DNA from: Geothrix sp.
GTDB lineage: Bacteria; Acidobacteriota; Holophagae; Holophagales; Holophagaceae
Assembly (NCBI GenBank): GCA_030681515.1
Contig: JAUXSE010000024.1
Coordinates: 62,001 to 126,000 of the forward strand
Direction: 5' to 3'
DNA length: 64,000 bases
Under the pieces are notes generated by a model. The model made no database searches and was not told the DNA's origin. It saw only the letters and a list, made by a program, of their open reading frames with translations. A program made the translations under genes and the position numbers. Below are positions 55,014 to 64,000 of this stretch, piece after piece. Each line of letters opens with the position of its first letter. The stretch's first letter is position 1.

Positions 55014-55056
55014 TCACAATTAAGAATAACAGATCTTAAATATTGAATAATTGTGA
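55014..55056. promoter_or_regulatory. Inverted-repeat region upstream of the nitric oxide reductase
   Basis: TCACAATTA (55014-55022) and TAATTGTGA (55048-55056) are inverted 9-mers. Nested inside are TTAAGA (55020-55025) and TCTTAA (55034-55039). This AT-rich block stands out from the GC-rich surroundings and lies 47 bases upstream of the norZ ATG. It does not match FNR/Dnr, NorR or NsrR consensus well enough to name the regulator. Confidence 0.5.
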
Positions 55057-55102
55057 AACACTGCTTCCCGGCACCCAGTGTGGCCATTCCAGGAGGTATT
55101 CG

Positions 55103-57334
55103 ATGAAGGCAAGGTGGTGGCTGCTGTTGCTGGTGCTCCTCGCGGGCTTCGGCGTATTGGGCATGGGAGGGCGACAGATCGCCCAGAACGCGCCCCCGAT
55201 TCCGCAGCGGGTGGTGGCCGAGGACGGCACCCTGCTGGTGGGCCCCGGGCAGATCCTCGAAGGCCAGGTCAGCTACCTGGGCCATGGGGGGCAGCACATC
55301 GGGTCCATCTGGGGCCACGGCGCCTATCTCGCGCCCGACTGGTCCGCCAAGGCGCTGCACCAGTGGGCCGCGCACACCCTCGATGGCGTGAAAGCCCAGG
55401 GCGGGTCCACCGCGGACGCCAAGGCCAGCACCGTATCCATATTTCAGGGCAATCGGTATGAATCTTCCACGGGCACGCTGACCCTTGGGACCGCCCAGGC
55501 GGCCGCCTATCTGCAGACCCGCACCGAACTGGCGAAGATCGCGGTGGAGGGCGACAAGAGTGCCGCCATCCCCGCCCGCTGGATTCCCACGATGCAGGAG
55601 GGCGAGCGCGTGGCCGACTTCTGGCTCTGGACGGCCTGGTCCGCCGCAGCCCGCCGGCCCGGCGCGGACCACAGCTACACCCAGAACTGGCCCCAGGAAC
55701 CCCTGGTGGGCAACACCATCACGCCCATCAGCCACCTCTGGAGCATCCTGTCCATCATCCTGCTGATCCTGGGCGTGGGCCTCATGGTCTGGCATCACGC
55801 CAACCAGCCCGCCGAGGCCTTCCCGGATCCCCAGCCCATCCCCGCGGCACCGGCCACCCCCAGCCAGCGCTGGTCGGCCCTCTACTTCGCCGTGGCCATG
55901 GCCCTGTTCCTGGTGCAGATCGGCATGGGCGTCCTGACGGCCCACGACGCGGTGGAAGGCAACGGACTCTACGGTCTGGATCTCTCCCGGATCCTGCCCT
56001 ACGCGGCTTCCCGCACCTGGCACCTGCAGCTGGCCGTCTTCTGGATCGCCACCTGCTGGCTGGCCACGGGCCTCTACCTGGGGCCCAAGCTCAGTGCCAA
56101 GGAACCCAAGGGCCAGTGGTTGGGCGTGGCGGGCCTGCTCGTCGCGCTCGTGGTGGTGGTGGTCGGCGCCCTGGCGGGCAGTCACCAGGCCATCCTGGGC
56201 AAGCTGTCCGGTTCCTTCATGCTGGGCCACCAGGGCTATGAGTACGTGGAACTGGGCCGCCTTTGGCAGATCCTCCTGACCGTGGGCATGATCGGCTGGC
56301 TGGTGCTGGTGTTCCGCGCGCTGATTCCCGCACTGAAGGGCGAGGCCGGCCGCGTGGGCCTGCTCAAGCTCTTCGTGCTGTCCGCCGTCGCCATTCCGCT
56401 GTTCTACTCCGCGGGCTTCATGTACACCCGCGAGACGCACATCGCCATGGCCGAGTACTGGCGCTGGTGGGTGGTCCACCTCTGGGTGGAGGGCTTCTTC
56501 GAAGTCTTCGCCACCGTCGCCATCGCGCTGCTCTCCACCCGCATGGGCCTGCTGCGCGAAAGCACCGCGCTGCGCGCCGTGAGCCTCTCCATGGGCCTCT
56601 TCCTGGGCAGCGGCGTCATCGGCACCTTCCACCACCTCTACTACACGGGTTCCCCGGCCTCCATCGCGGCCCTGGGCTCCGTGTTCAGCGCCCTGGAGAT
56701 CGTGCCCCTCACCATCGTGGGCTTCGAGATCGCCATGAGCCTGAAGGCCGGCAAGGCCATCGGCAGCGGCTACGAATGGCCCTTCAAGTTCTTCGCGGCC
56801 GTGTGCTTCTGGAACCTCATCGGCGCGGGCGTCTTCGGCATGCTCATCAATCCGCCGTCGGTCCTCTACTTCGGCCAGGGCCTCAACACCACGCCCATCC
56901 ACAGCCACGCCGCGCTGTTCGGCGTCTACGGCTTCCTCGCCATCTCGCTCATGCTCTTCTCCCTGCGGGGCATGACGCCGGACAAGGCCTGGGACGAGAA
57001 GTGGCTGCGCTTCGGCTTCTGGGGCCTGAACCTGGGCCTGGTCCTGATGCTGGTGTTGTCGCTGATCCCCAGTGGCTTCTACCAGATCGCCCAGAGCCTG
57101 GAACACGGCACCTGGTACGCCCGCAGCGCCGAGGTGGTGCAAAGCCCCCTCATGCGCACCTTCATCTGGATGCGCATGCCCGGCGACGTGCTCTTCGGCC
57201 TCGGCGCCCTCGCCGTCATCCTCTTCACCGTCAAGGCCGTCATCGGCGCCTGGGGCTGGAGGACGATCGAGGAAACCGCCCCGGTCCGCAAGGGCACGGA
57301 AGCGGCACCTGCTTTCGCGGTGGCCGAGGACTGA
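55103..57334 (+). CDS. norZ: Quinol-dependent nitric oxide reductase (qNOR)
   Basis: 743 residues with 14 hydrophobic segments. It reduces 2 NO to N2O with quinol electrons. The N-terminal half (about 30-230) is the periplasmic cytochrome c-like domain without CXXCH, typical of qNOR; GHGGQHIGSIWGHGAYLAPD is conserved. The catalytic subunit part has the heme and FeB ligands: SRTWHLQLAVFW near 310, WWVVHLWVEGFFEVFATV with the conserved Glu near 465, TFHHLYYTGSP near 512, NTTPIHSHAALFGVYG near 610. AGGAGG before the ATG at 55103 fixes the start. It stands alone, which suggests NO detoxification rather than full denitrification. Confidence 0.95.
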   Translation: MKARWWLLLLVLLAGFGVLGMGGRQIAQNAPPIPQRVVAEDGTLLVGPGQILEGQVSYLGHGGQHIGSIWGHGAYLAPDWSAKALHQWAAHTLDGVKAQGGSTADAKASTVSIFQGNRYESSTGTLTLGTAQAAAYLQTRTELAKIAVEGDKSAAIPARWIPTMQEGERVADFWLWTAWSAAARRPGADHSYTQNWPQEPLVGNTITPISHLWSILSIILLILGVGLMVWHHANQPAEAFPDPQPIPAAPATPSQRWSALYFAVAMALFLVQIGMGVLTAHDAVEGNGLYGLDLSRILPYAASRTWHLQLAVFWIATCWLATGLYLGPKLSAKEPKGQWLGVAGLLVALVVVVVGALAGSHQAILGKLSGSFMLGHQGYEYVELGRLWQILLTVGMIGWLVLVFRALIPALKGEAGRVGLLKLFVLSAVAIPLFYSAGFMYTRETHIAMAEYWRWWVVHLWVEGFFEVFATVAIALLSTRMGLLRESTALRAVSLSMGLFLGSGVIGTFHHLYYTGSPASIAALGSVFSALEIVPLTIVGFEIAMSLKAGKAIGSGYEWPFKFFAAVCFWNLIGAGVFGMLINPPSVLYFGQGLNTTPIHSHAALFGVYGFLAISLMLFSLRGMTPDKAWDEKWLRFGFWGLNLGLVLMLVLSLIPSGFYQIAQSLEHGTWYARSAEVVQSPLMRTFIWMRMPGDVLFGLGALAVILFTVKAVIGAWGWRTIEETAPVRKGTEAAPAFAVAED

Positions 57335-59005: not shown

Positions 59006-59737
59006 CTACGCGATCTCCCGCCCCTCTCCGGCCTCCTCGAAGGTCTGGCCATCCCGGATCCGGTAGATCCGCTTGAAGGTGGGAATGATCTTTTCGTCAT
59101 GGGTGACCACGATGATGGCGGTCTGGTACTGGTGGGCCATGTCGTGGAGGATGCGCATCACGGTGAGGGCGCGCTCGCTGTCCAGGGGGGCCGTGGGCTC
59201 GTCGGCCAGGATGACCGGGGGCCGGTTGGCCAGGGCCCGGGCGATGGCGACGCGCTGTTGTTCGCCGCCGGAAAGGGTGGAGGGCTCGGCCTGGGCCCGG
59301 TGGGAGACATCCATGGCCTGGAGCAGCTCCCGGGCCCGCTCCCGGGCCTGATCGTTGGGGTGTCCCGCCAGCATGGGCAGCAGGGCCACATTGTCGGTGA
59401 CATCCAGGAAGGGGATCAGGTACGGGGCCTGGAACACGAAGCCGATGCGGTCCCGGCGGAGCGTGCGCAGATCCTTGATCTTCCAGCCGGCGTCGTAGAT
59501 GACCTCCCCGCCCAGGATCATGCGGCCCCGGGTGGGCTCGATGACGGCCCCCAGGCATTTCAGGAGGGTGGTCTTGCCCGAGCCGCTGGGGCCGATGAGG
59601 CCCACCACTTCCCCCGGGGCGACGGTCATGTCCACGCCCTTGAGCGCATCCACCGCGGCGTCCCCTTCGCCGTAGCGCTTCCACAGCCCTTCGATCCGGA
59701 TGCCCTGTCCCTGTCCCTGTCCCGGCCCCTGGTCCAT
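59006..59737 (-). CDS. ABC transporter ATPase, DevA/LolD type
   Basis: 243 residues. Walker A GLIGPSGSGKTTLLKCLG near 50, Q-loop GFVFQAPYLIPFLDV near 100, signature LSGGEQQRVAIARALA near 150, Walker B VILADEPTAPLDSERAL near 172, switch His VVTHDEK near 205. It powers a MacB/DevC-type permease. The ATG at 59737 has GGAGG 5-9 bases upstream; the permease stop lies one base before it. Third gene of an exporter operon in the order membrane fusion protein, permease, ATPase. Confidence 0.94.
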   Translation of the reverse strand: MDQGPGQGQGQGIRIEGLWKRYGEGDAAVDALKGVDMTVAPGEVVGLIGPSGSGKTTLLKCLGAVIEPTRGRMILGGEVIYDAGWKIKDLRTLRRDRIGFVFQAPYLIPFLDVTDNVALLPMLAGHPNDQARERARELLQAMDVSHRAQAEPSTLSGGEQQRVAIARALANRPPVILADEPTAPLDSERALTVMRILHDMAHQYQTAIIVVTHDEKIIPTFKRIYRIRDGQTFEEAGEGREIA

Positions 59738-59738
59738 G

Positions 59739-60932
59739 TCAGCCTCCAATGGCCGTGGCGGGGTCTACGTTGAGCGCCGCGCGGATGGCCACCGTGCTGG
59801 CCAGGGCGCACACGGCCATCATGATGATGAAGCCCCAGACGGCATCCCCGGGGAGCAGCAGCACATACTTGGGGAAGGCCGGGGCCCAGAGGGTGGCGGC
59901 GACCTTGCCCACCAGGAAACCGATGACCCCGAGCCCGAGGGCCTGCTGAAGGATCATGGAGGCGATGGTGCGGTTCTGGGTGCCGATGAGCTTCAGCACC
60001 GCGATCTCCCGGATCTTGCCGAGGGTGAGCGTGTAGATGATGAAGGCCACGATGGCGGCGCTCACGATGGCCAGGATGGCCAGGAACATCCCGATCTGCT
60101 TGGCGGCGGTGGCGATGAGCTTGGCGATGAGGATGTCCTCCATCTCCTTGCGGTCGTAGGCCTGGAGGTGCTTCCAGCGCCGGATGGTCTGGGCCACGGT
60201 GGTTGGATCCTGGCCTTCGGCCACCTTCACCAGCACGGCGTTGACGCTGTGGTTGCTGGTCTGGGAGGCGTTGATGGCGTCCAGGAGCCCCGGCACGCCG
60301 GGACGGTTGAGGGCGGGATTGGCGGCGTTGCGCGCGCGGCCGGCCACGATGGCATCGTTGTCCTTCAGGAACTGGGCCTCCTGGGCATCCTTCAGGGGGA
60401 TGAACACCATGGGGTCGCCCCCCGAAGACACCATGCGGCGGGTGATCCCCACCACGGTGTAGTCCTGGCGACGGATGCGAATGCGATCCCCCACCTTGAA
60501 CCGCGTCATCTGATCCGCCACGGCCTCATAGTGACTGCGCGTGATCTGGCGGCCCGAGGTCAGGAAGCCCGGCGCCCCGGGCTGGCCCGGCTTGAACCCC
60601 ACCACCATGGCGCGCACATCGGTATCGCCCTTGCGCACCTGCATGGTGAGGTAGGTGACATTGGCGGCCTGGGCCACGCCGGGCAGGGCGAGGATGCCGC
60701 GGTAGAGATCGTCGGGCAGGCTGGAAGGTTCGGCATAGGGGCCCAGGGTGTCCTTCTGGACCACCCACAGATCCGCGCCGCTGTTCTGAAGCAGCACCTC
60801 GGCGTCGTCCACCATGCCCCGGTAGACCCCCGCCATGGTGAGGGTGGCGCCGATGAGCAGACCCAGCCCCAGGCCCGTCAGCACGAACTTGCTCCAGGAG
60901 TGGAGGATGTCGCGTCCCGCGAGGCTGATCAT
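59739..60932 (-). CDS. ABC transporter permease, DevC/MacB (FtsX-like) type
   Basis: 397 residues with one N-terminal helix (WSKFVLTGLGLGLLIGATLT), a large periplasmic MacB-PCD domain (about 40-255) and three C-terminal helices: IGMFLAILAIVSAAIVAFII, LQQALGLGVIGFLVGKVAAT and VWGFIIMMAVCALASTVAIR. The FtsX motif TLGKIREIAVLKLIGTQNR is the cytoplasmic loop between helices. DevC-type proteins export with an HlyD-like adaptor. The ATG overlaps the adaptor gene stop (ATGA). The substrate is unknown. Confidence 0.92.
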   Translation of the reverse strand: MISLAGRDILHSWSKFVLTGLGLGLLIGATLTMAGVYRGMVDDAEVLLQNSGADLWVVQKDTLGPYAEPSSLPDDLYRGILALPGVAQAANVTYLTMQVRKGDTDVRAMVVGFKPGQPGAPGFLTSGRQITRSHYEAVADQMTRFKVGDRIRIRRQDYTVVGITRRMVSSGGDPMVFIPLKDAQEAQFLKDNDAIVAGRARNAANPALNRPGVPGLLDAINASQTSNHSVNAVLVKVAEGQDPTTVAQTIRRWKHLQAYDRKEMEDILIAKLIATAAKQIGMFLAILAIVSAAIVAFIIYTLTLGKIREIAVLKLIGTQNRTIASMILQQALGLGVIGFLVGKVAATLWAPAFPKYVLLLPGDAVWGFIIMMAVCALASTVAIRAALNVDPATAIGG

Positions 60933-62113
60933 CGCCGGCGGCCCTCCAGGCTCTTCACCACCCGGACCTTGTCGTCCACTTCCAGGTCCCGCTCGGAATA
61001 CACCAGGACCTCGTCCCCCTCCTTCAATCCCTGGAGGATCTCCACATCGCCATCGGCCCCCTCGGCCCCCACCTGCACGGGTGCGAACCGGAGACGGCCG
61101 CCCGCCCGCACCCACACGCCCCGCTTCGCGCCGAGGGAGCGCAGGCTGGCATTGGGGACGGTGAGCGCCTGGGGCGTGGGTGGAATCCGGATGGTCGTGT
61201 CCGCCATTTCGTGGGTGGTGGTCCCGGGGGGGATCGCGTCGAAAGTGACCCGGGCGATGCGCTCCTCCGTGATGCTGTCGCTGATGGGTTCCACGCGGGC
61301 CACATGCCCCGGGAAGGACTGGTTGGGCCGGGAGCGGAGGACGATTTCCGCGGGAAGGCCGGCCTTCAGCCCCGCCGAACGGTCCTGGTCCAGGCGAACC
61401 GTCACCCACAGGCTGTCCGGATCCTCCAGCCGCAGCACCGCCTGGCCGGCGATCACCGTGGACCCGGGCTCGGCTTCCCGGGAGGTCACGCGGCCGGCGC
61501 CGGTGGCGAAGAGGCGCAGGCTGTTCCGCTGCTTCCGCTGCCCCCCGAGGTCCGCTGAAAGCCGTTCCAGATCCTTCCCGGCCGCGGACAGGGTGGCCTC
61601 CGCCGCAGTGACCAGGGATTCGGCGGAAGTCCGTTCCAGCAGCTTGGCGTCCAGGAGGCTCTGGCTGACGATGCCCCCCCGGGCCAGATCCAGGTGGCGC
61701 TGGGCCTCAAGGCGCGCGAGATCCCGCCGCTTCAGGGCATCGCGGAGCTGGGCTTCGGCCGTGACCACGGTACTGCGGCCCCGCTCCGAGGCCGCCGCGC
61801 TGGAAACCACCCGGGCATCCAGATCCACGGGATCCAGGTCCGCCAGCAGCTGCCCGGTCCGCACCCGATCCCCCACATCCACATAGAGGGCCCGGACCCG
61901 GGCGGGAGCGGTGGGGCCGATCAGGAAGGCCCGCCGGGCCTCCACGGTTCCGATGCCGAAGAGGGCCGGGGCGACCTCCTTGCGGGTCACCCGGGCCACC
62001 GTGACGCGAATGGGCGCCATGGGGCCGCTGTTCAGCACCACCCAGCCCAGGACCGCCAGGCCCAGCGCCACCGAGGCGTAGATGATGGTTTTCCGCGAGA
62101 ACGGGAGATTCAT
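60929..62113 (-). CDS. HlyD-family membrane fusion protein, DevB-like
   Basis: 394 residues. An N-terminal membrane anchor (TIIYASVALGLAVLGWVVLN) is followed by a lipoyl-half (ALFGIGTVEARRAFLIGPTA, VRALYVDVGDRVRTGQLLAD), an alpha-hairpin (about 100-190), the second lipoyl-half (GAGRVTSREAEPGSTVIAGQ) and a beta-barrel to the C-terminus (AGLPAEIVLRSRPNQSFPGH). It bridges the permease to an outer-membrane channel, which is not encoded here. ATG at 62113 with a GGAGTCC site is preferred. It leads the exporter operon, and a palindrome 54 bases upstream may control it. Confidence 0.92.
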   Translation of the reverse strand: MNLPFSRKTIIYASVALGLAVLGWVVLNSGPMAPIRVTVARVTRKEVAPALFGIGTVEARRAFLIGPTAPARVRALYVDVGDRVRTGQLLADLDPVDLDARVVSSAAASERGRSTVVTAEAQLRDALKRRDLARLEAQRHLDLARGGIVSQSLLDAKLLERTSAESLVTAAEATLSAAGKDLERLSADLGGQRKQRNSLRLFATGAGRVTSREAEPGSTVIAGQAVLRLEDPDSLWVTVRLDQDRSAGLKAGLPAEIVLRSRPNQSFPGHVARVEPISDSITEERIARVTFDAIPPGTTTHEMADTTIRIPPTPQALTVPNASLRSLGAKRGVWVRAGGRLRFAPVQVGAEGADGDVEILQGLKEGDEVLVYSERDLEVDDKVRVVKSLEGRRR

Positions 62114-62441
62114 GGGACTCCGAGGGGATTGATCAAGCCGAAGAGGGAAGGGGCCTTCCATCAAATTTCAACACTTGTTGAATAATAGGAACTATTTTCA
62201 GACCCGCAAGCCCTTTTTTGACCCGGTCCCGAACTCTTCGGTTGGTTCCGAGGTTGGGGGAAGACCACTGCGACCATGGCAATCCAGCCGGGTGCTATCC
62301 ACCCTCCACCACAGCTCCGGCGCACCCTTGATGCCCCGGGGATTCCAGTGGATGGTTTTTGCCATCCCGCCCCGTGCGTCAGCGCGGCGCGGGGGCTATG
62401 ATGGTTAACCTGACCAACCCGGTCGGGATTCTGGGGCTGCC
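62114..62441. other. Divergent promoter region of exporter operon and ispH
   Basis: 328 bases between the HlyD gene and ispH. An AT-rich block (62160-62220) faces the exporter and contains TTCAACA-CT-TGTTGAA (62167-62182), an operator-like inverted repeat, and a smaller AATAG/CTATT hairpin. Toward ispH the sequence becomes GC-rich; a CGCGGCGCGGGGGCTATGATGG stretch just before 62400 includes TATGAT (62397-62402), a plausible -10 for ispH. No gene is present. Confidence 0.5.
62167..62182. promoter_or_regulatory. Candidate operator of the HlyD-ABC exporter operon
   Basis: Two perfect 7-base arms, TTCAACA and TGTTGAA, with a two-base centre, 54 bases before the HlyD-family ATG. Position and form suit a TetR- or MarR-type repressor, but no regulator gene is next to it. 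Confidence 0.45.
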
Positions 62442-64000
62442 ATGAAAGTCATCGTCGCCAAGACCGCGGGGTTCTGCTGGGGCGTGAAGCGCGCCATGGA
62501 CGCGGTGCTGGAGGCTTCGCTGCGGAACGATGGCCGCCCGGTGCAGACCCTGGGGCCGCTCATCCACAATCCGCAGGCGCTGGAGCTCATCGGCAAGCGG
62601 GGCGTGGCGGTGGCGGCGACGCCGGACCAGGTGCAGGACGGCACGGTGGTGATCCGCGCCCACGGCATCCCCATCCAGGATCTGCGCGGCCTCAAGGAGC
62701 GCCAGGCCCGGGGCGAGGTGAGGATCGTGAATGCCACTTGCCCGGAGGTGGCCAAGGTCCACCACAAGATCAAGAAGTGGAGCCCCAGGGGCTACTTCAC
62801 GGTGATCCTGGGCAGCCACGGCCACGCGGAAAGCGTGGCGCACCGCAGCTTCGCCGACAGTGGTTCGGTCATCGTGGCGAACATGGCCGAGGCCGAGGCG
62901 CTCAGCGACGAACAGCTGAAGAAGGTGCTGGTGGTGGCCCAGACCACCTTCACGGTGAAGGACTACCATGCCATCTCGGAGTACCTCCGCGCCCGGGCGG
63001 GGGACGCGGTCTTCGAGAACACCATCTGCGAAGACACCTGGATGCGCCAGGACGAGGCCAAGAAACTGGCCCAGACCGTGGACACGGTGATCGTCGTGGG
63101 CGGCAAGGCCTCCAGCAACACCAAGCATCTGGCCGAGCTGGCCCGGCACCACGGCAAGCCCGTGCAGTATGTGGAAACGGCCTCGGAACTGGATCTCGGC
63201 GGCTTCACGGGGAAGGAGACCGTGGGTGTGCTGGCGGGGGCTTCCACGCCCACCTGGCTGGTGGACGAGGTGGTGGATGTGCTGGAGCAGCTGGGCGGCG
63301 GCCCCAGCCGCTGGCGCAGCTTCATGCAGGCGGCCTACGGCAGCTCGTCCCTGATGGCCCTGGGCGCGGGCCTGATGACCCTGGGTGTGCACAAGTGGCT
63401 CGGCCTGCCCTTGGGCTGGCGGTATCCCACCCTGACGGCGACCTACGTGCTGGCCATGTACCTGCTCAGCCCCTTCCTGGATCCCCTGGGCCTCGGGACG
63501 AAAGGCCCGGCCCGGGCCCGGTTCCTGGAACGCCACCGGCGGATCCTGCTGATTTCCGCCATCGCCGCCCTGGCGCTCACCCTGGGTCTGGCGGCAAGCC
63601 TGGGCGTGAAGGTGCTGGCGGTCGTGACGGGCGCCTCCCTGGTGGGCGCGTCCTACAAGCGCCGGTTCCAGGTGGGCGGCCGCGAATGGAGCCTGAGGCA
63701 CATTCCGGGATCCAAGGACGTGGTGGTGTCGCTGGCCCTGGCCACGGTGGCGGTCCTCACGCCGGTCTGGCAGGAGGGCCGGGCCTGGGATCTGCGGGCC
63801 TTCGCGGCGGTCTTCCTGGTGGGCGTCCTGGCCTTCGTCCGCACGGTGATCTACGAGATCCGCGATATGCAGAACGATCAGATCGTGGGCAAGGAGACTC
63901 TGCCGATCCTCATGGGCAAGCGGGCCACCAAGGTCGTGCTCGTCGGCCTGCTGGGCATCCTGCTGGCGGGCACCCTCTGGCTGACCTTCGAGAACCGGAG
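62442..64000 (+). CDS. ispH: IspH fused to a UbiA-like membrane prenyltransferase domain (3' end beyond window)
   Basis: I translated this from the ATG at 62442; the frame stays open to the right edge (519+ codons). Residues 1-285 are IspH, the last MEP enzyme, which makes isopentenyl and dimethylallyl diphosphate. All three cluster cysteines are present: TAGFCWGVKRA, NATCPEVAKVHHKIK and FENTICEDTW; GSHGHAES and QTTFTV are also conserved. From about 290 the protein becomes hydrophobic with at least six helices and ends in YEIRDMQNDQIVGKETLPIL, the second Asp-rich motif of UbiA prenyltransferases. The first Asp-rich motif (NDxxDxxxD) is not visible; SLVGASYKRRFQVGGREWSL occurs in its place. 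Confidence 0.9.
   Translation, partial: MKVIVAKTAGFCWGVKRAMDAVLEASLRNDGRPVQTLGPLIHNPQALELIGKRGVAVAATPDQVQDGTVVIRAHGIPIQDLRGLKERQARGEVRIVNATCPEVAKVHHKIKKWSPRGYFTVILGSHGHAESVAHRSFADSGSVIVANMAEAEALSDEQLKKVLVVAQTTFTVKDYHAISEYLRARAGDAVFENTICEDTWMRQDEAKKLAQTVDTVIVVGGKASSNTKHLAELARHHGKPVQYVETASELDLGGFTGKETVGVLAGASTPTWLVDEVVDVLEQLGGGPSRWRSFMQAAYGSSSLMALGAGLMTLGVHKWLGLPLGWRYPTLTATYVLAMYLLSPFLDPLGLGTKGPARARFLERHRRILLISAIAALALTLGLAASLGVKVLAVVTGASLVGASYKRRFQVGGREWSLRHIPGSKDVVVSLALATVAVLTPVWQEGRAWDLRAFAAVFLVGVLAFVRTVIYEIRDMQNDQIVGKETLPILMGKRATKVVLVGLLGILLAGTLWLTFENR

Follow-up and report, generated by a model that had tools for sequence, protein, structure and literature searches.

An IspH–UbiA fusion conserved in Holophagaceae, with a predicted membrane half whose prenyltransferase site is altered

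IspH is the HMBPP reductase that performs the last step of the MEP pathway; it is an essential enzyme and a drug target, and is normally studied as a soluble protein. In the soil bacterium Geothrix, one reading frame was seen to join IspH to a UbiA-like membrane domain, which raises the question of whether this second half acts as enzyme or as anchor.

The architecture itself is already known, since IspH–UbiA fusions were described by Rao et al. in 2015, 47 in number and mostly from Desulfobacterales (PMC4746011). In that study an active prenyltransferase was assumed because both DxxxD motifs were present, the protein yield was modest and mostly truncated, and local IPP/DMAPP supply, membrane location or sensing were proposed as roles, with supply being favoured (PMC4746011). 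No subsequent functional work on IspH–UbiA was found in the literature searched. The sequence-only reading of the locus, which knew of no characterised fusion, overlooked a published architecture; its suggestion of either channelling or membrane anchoring agrees with two of the published roles. As far as literature searches show, what is added here is the occurrence throughout the Holophagaceae and the way in which the active site varies from lineage to lineage.

The fusion gene and its two halves

In the window, i.e. the whole analysed stretch of 64,000 nucleotides, the frame starts with ATG at position 62442 and is open at the window end, with 519 amino acids inside (open reading frame analysis). 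The contig was followed past position 64000 in the window's own genome (G000, contig C46; 3.2 Mb, 99.5% complete), where the C-terminus was reached at 573 amino acids with zero internal stops, including between the domains, as expected from the single uninterrupted frame noticed at first. Features were located as follows:

62442..63998, plus strand: IspH–UbiA fusion gene, in-window part (519 of 573 codons; about 160 bases more past the window)
62442..63293, plus strand: IspH (LytB) domain, residues 1–284 (PF02401, TIGR00216)
62475..62477, plus strand: cluster cysteine C12 (from sequence; invariant in 80 fusions)
62739..62741, plus strand: cluster cysteine C100 (from sequence; invariant in 80 fusions)
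63027..63029, plus strand: cluster cysteine C196 (from sequence; invariant in 80 fusions)
63309..63998, plus strand: UbiA-fold membrane half, residues 290–519 of 290–573 (PF01040, AlphaFold, VIA-align Z 17.9 to 4od5)
63468..63482, plus strand: degenerate first Asp-rich motif, S343 (AfUbiA N68 position) to D347 (D72 position) (motif alignment)
63654..63656, plus strand: Y405, at the position of AfUbiA Y139, the near-universal Tyr of UbiAs (HMM alignment to 4tq3)
63714..63716, plus strand: K425 of the subfamily-specific IPxSKD motif (IPxSK-type motif in 77/80 fusions, 0 separate UbiAs checked)
63864..63878, plus strand: second Asp-rich motif D475xxxD479 (alignment to AfUbiA D198/D202)

The IspH domain was complete, as first proposed: Pfam LYTB (PF02401) matched residues 3–281 (E 1.6e-79), and TIGR00216 gave a whole-domain match at residues 2–283 (253.9 bits, cut-off 187.9). 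The three [4Fe-4S] cysteines and the equivalents of E. coli H41, H124, E126 and T167 were invariant in 80 distinct fusions, and the Geothrix IspH half is predicted to be an HMBPP reductase, converting HMBPP to IPP and DMAPP. It is the only IspH in G000.

After a linker of only about 6 residues follows the UbiA-fold half, in which Pfam UbiA (PF01040) matched residues 369–548 (48.7 bits, gathering cut-off 34.2); UbiA was found by profiles only, a phmmer search of a single UbiA half against the PDB having given no UbiA match. The AlphaFold model was that of a homologue 91% identical to the window protein (L008; 30 aligned sequences, mean pLDDT 83), with 8–9 membrane-type helices from residue 290 onward, where at least six hydrophobic ones had been counted from the letters. 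Its IspH half matched E. coli IspH (Z about 33), and its UbiA half matched ApUbiA (4od5; Z 17.9 over 249 residues, rmsd 3.3 Å) and AfUbiA (4tq3; Z 16.3). Soluble prenyl synthases of a related helical bundle came close behind (Z about 15); function therefore does not follow from the fold by itself. A membrane location of the protein is predicted.

Two further features of the window were recorded: an ABC exporter set divergent from the fusion gene (59006–62164, minus strand; ATPase, MacB/FtsX-type permease, HlyD-type adaptor) and a frame resembling, by eye, a quinol-type nitric oxide reductase (55043–57334, plus strand).

Occurrence and origin of the fusion

The closest named records belong to Geothrix (Acidobacteriota, Holophagae). 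The taxonomic range was mapped in 396 acidobacterial genomes. A full-length match was obtained in 39/39 Holophagaceae genomes, some of them single-contig, leaving none of these close relatives without the fusion, and in 6/6 genomes of a second family of the same class (f2); four further acidobacterial families held few cases, and most other genomes matched over the IspH part only. The fusion was also found in most of 24 sampled genomes of Nitrospinota (the phylum label of L054). In nearly all members of the window's family it was the sole IspH. As a stand-alone protein, this UbiA subfamily gave only two weak matches in 28 genomes in which no full-length fusion had been detected, and no further relatives, Desulfobacterota included, were found in viral contigs and plasmids.

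An IspH tree of 36 fusions and 17 separate IspHs required two state changes, with two unfused IspHs (L161, L163) nested inside the fusion group, a pattern that one fusion and one later loss would explain; these two have probably lost the UbiA half secondarily. A single origin of the fusion is most likely, its UbiA half going back to a functional UbiA-type prenyltransferase; the spread across phyla could have been vertical or by transfer.

Three cases were located on MAG contigs of 9–39 kb and could be misbinned: the single-genome occurrences in G280 and G306, which fall outside the core clades, and the second copy of G276. Second fusions of this kind, diverged and shorter (517 and 525 amino acids), stand beside the usual one in G308 (L095) and G276 (L097, contig C73); both retain the IspH cysteines and have lost Tyr, Lys and Asn in the UbiA half. 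Because the G308 genome consists of one contig, misbinning of L095 is less likely.

Active-site residues and gene neighbourhoods

In AfUbiA, N68, D72, D198 and D202 bind Mg2+ and prenyl diphosphate; GPP binding is abolished in N68, D72, R22 or K146 mutants and weakened 45- and 21-fold in D198A and D202A, respectively, with alanine as the replacement at all four Mg2+-site residues, and E. coli MenA function requires the equivalents of N68, D72, D198, D202 and Y139 (PMC4106721). Y139, D198 and D202 were mapped onto the window protein by profile alignment, N68 and D72 by ungapped motif alignment, which gave S343 for N68, D347 for D72, Y405 for Y139, D475 for D198 and D479 for D202 as predicted equivalents. 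The second motif (D475-MQN-D479) and the active-site Tyr are thus present, in keeping with the UbiA-type second motif read at the outset. The first motif, suspected there to be degenerate, reads S343-PFL-D347-PLG-L351: the Asn is missing, one Asp remains, Leu occupies the third acidic position, and the NDxxDxxxD of UbiA enzymes is absent. At the Mg2+ site itself, the protein differs at one of four residues.

The same comparison was extended to the 80 distinct fusions, with separate UbiAs from the window's own and other fusion-bearing genomes as controls (L122, L128 and L136 were excluded as wrong-frame picks). NxxxDxxxD occurred in 0/80 fusions vs 24/27 correctly read separate UbiAs, and N, D, D, D at all four positions in 13/80 fusions. 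In Holophagaceae the Asn is replaced by Ser, Thr or Ala (by one of the first two in most members), and D347, Y405, K425 and motif II are retained in nearly all members. In other lineages with the fusion, the D72 position holds R, N, S or A and the D198 position V, I, N, S or A: Nitrospinota group 2 has Arg or Asn for Asp72, both motif-II Asp are gone from acidobacterial family f20, and families f9, f27 and f28 have lost the first of these, f27 and f28 together with Asp72. On the UbiA-half tree, the label intact or altered changed at least 5 times, 3 of these changes being forced by well-supported branches. The dN/dS ratio in Holophagaceae was about 0.26 for the UbiA half vs 0.13 for the IspH half, a sign of purifying selection, and the best-kept UbiA-half sites include P441, D479, G483, Y405, G402, P422 and K425; together these values indicate that the UbiA half is not decaying at random.

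Nitrospinota group 1 retains all four Mg2+-site residues and carries an O-methyltransferase-type gene downstream of the fusion at five loci; in four cases it overlaps the fusion gene or lies no more than about 20 bases away. Each is of Methyltransf_2 type and lies downstream of a fusion with intact Mg2+ site:

L055, 6741–7787: Methyltransf_2-type O-methyltransferase
L056, 6737–7753: Methyltransf_2-type O-methyltransferase
L186, 5716–6774: Methyltransf_2-type O-methyltransferase
L187, 6769–7770: Methyltransf_2-type O-methyltransferase
L057, 3710–4060: Methyltransf_2-type O-methyltransferase

The two genes possibly form an operon and offer a clue to a product, and on account of the intact residues and this neighbour, group 1 appears to be the best candidate for an active UbiA half. 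At Nitrospinota loci with altered first motif (L151–L157, L190), parA- and parB-like genes were seen by eye after the fusion.

Separate UbiA genes, searched for in G000, comprised an MqnP-like, a heme O synthase-like and a third one, and MqnA/MqnD-type genes were present as well. Given the MqnP-like prenyltransferase and the MqnA/MqnD-type genes, quinone synthesis should not depend on the fused half, and the initial idea of channelling into quinones became less likely. A menaquinone or heme O prenyltransferase was rejected as the likely role of the fused half, both having separate genes. The third separate UbiA (L005; G000:C20:112789-113487, minus strand) gave weak NCBIfam matches only and has an unusual second motif; the frame upstream contains a Cys-rich stretch resembling DUF116 by eye.

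The UbiA half could be active in Geothrix too, taking DMAPP or another prenyl diphosphate fed locally by IspH to prenylate some acceptor, with Ser343 in place of the Asn ligand. Ser and Thr can act as Mg2+ ligands in other isoprenoid enzymes, and since only one of the four residues differs, the window protein may have residual or full activity. The residues kept in nearly all Holophagaceae, the purifying selection and the intact site beside an O-methyltransferase gene in Nitrospinota group 1, which points to a real product there, are in line with such activity, as is the supply role favoured by Rao et al. (PMC4746011). It is opposed by the family-wide loss of NxxxDxxxD, by fusions that persist with D72 and D198 substituted, and by the neighbourhoods, in which no conserved informative isoprenoid or operon partner was seen in Holophagaceae and housekeeping genes were found in other lineages. 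An active enzyme in Geothrix is a serious but second-placed explanation.

Tethering of IspH as the preferred reading

We consider it about an even chance (roughly 0.5) that the protein is a membrane-tethered IspH whose tail has a diphosphate-type pocket and is perhaps no canonical prenyltransferase any more. The sole cellular IspH would be held at the cytoplasmic face of the membrane by the C-terminal UbiA-fold module, a single fusion having been inherited or transferred together with IspH. For the window's lineage, this module would be mainly a tether, and a diphosphate-type pocket of Tyr405, Lys425, Asp475 and Asp479 would be kept at the place of IPP and DMAPP release. Since most members of the family have Ser or Thr for the first-motif Asn, prenyl transfer of the canonical, Mg2+-dependent kind has probably become weaker or disappeared. 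As the IspH half is intact everywhere and the canonical UbiA site is repeatedly altered, canonical prenyl transfer is unlikely to be the reason why several lineages retain the fusion; what all fusions have in common is the membrane fold with a remnant pocket, and the motif data across lineages lean towards an anchor or binding module. A pure anchor would leave the conservation of Tyr405, Lys425 and Asp479 needless. The wider proposal, that a prenyltransferase domain was captured once by IspH, repeatedly lost its Mg2+-diphosphate site and is now a membrane-docking, perhaps product-binding, module, which would make IspH an integral membrane protein in several lineages, is put forward more tentatively.

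Less probable by some distance is a sensor or new chemistry, in which the module would bind a lipid or isoprenoid diphosphate via Lys425, Asp479 and Tyr405 and regulate IspH or catalyse a reaction other than prenyl transfer. The IPxSKD signature, present in 77/80 fusions and in none of the separate UbiAs checked, and the strong conservation beside motif II are compatible with this role, but the signature could simply be an IspH–UbiA contact. Chance read-through or an assembly artefact without function is very improbable, as the three possibly misbinned cases on short MAG contigs stand against all 39 sampled family genomes, all of f2 and most sampled Nitrospinota, and for the window's family it is refuted by conservation and selection.

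If tethering holds, a whole family has its sole IspH at the membrane, which bears on the electron supply of IspH and on the route of IPP and DMAPP to membrane-bound users of prenyl diphosphates. As the fusion family contains both intact and altered active sites, it allows a direct test of the question from 2015.

Compared with the 'Rosetta stone' fusions of Rao et al., the Geothrix protein is likewise a complete IspH followed in the same chain by a UbiA-like C-terminal half with about nine helices, with separate UbiA/MenA genes in the genome (PMC4746011). Two DxxxD motifs are reported for that set, here compared by its description, whereas the Geothrix fusion has the second only, the first being reduced here to S/T/A-xxx-D/E/N without the third acid; the text names neither Acidobacteria nor Geothrix (PMC4746011). 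With the prenyltransferases of the UbiA superfamily (ApUbiA 4od5, AfUbiA 4tq3, MenA, MqnP), the Geothrix half shares the fold, the DxxxDxxxGxxTxP second motif and the active-site Tyr; unlike these, it is devoid of NDxxDxxxD, carries the IPxSKD signature and is fused to IspH. IspH–RPS1 fusions also combine IspH with a C-terminal partner, which is ribosomal protein S1 in that case and not a membrane protein as here (PMC4746011).
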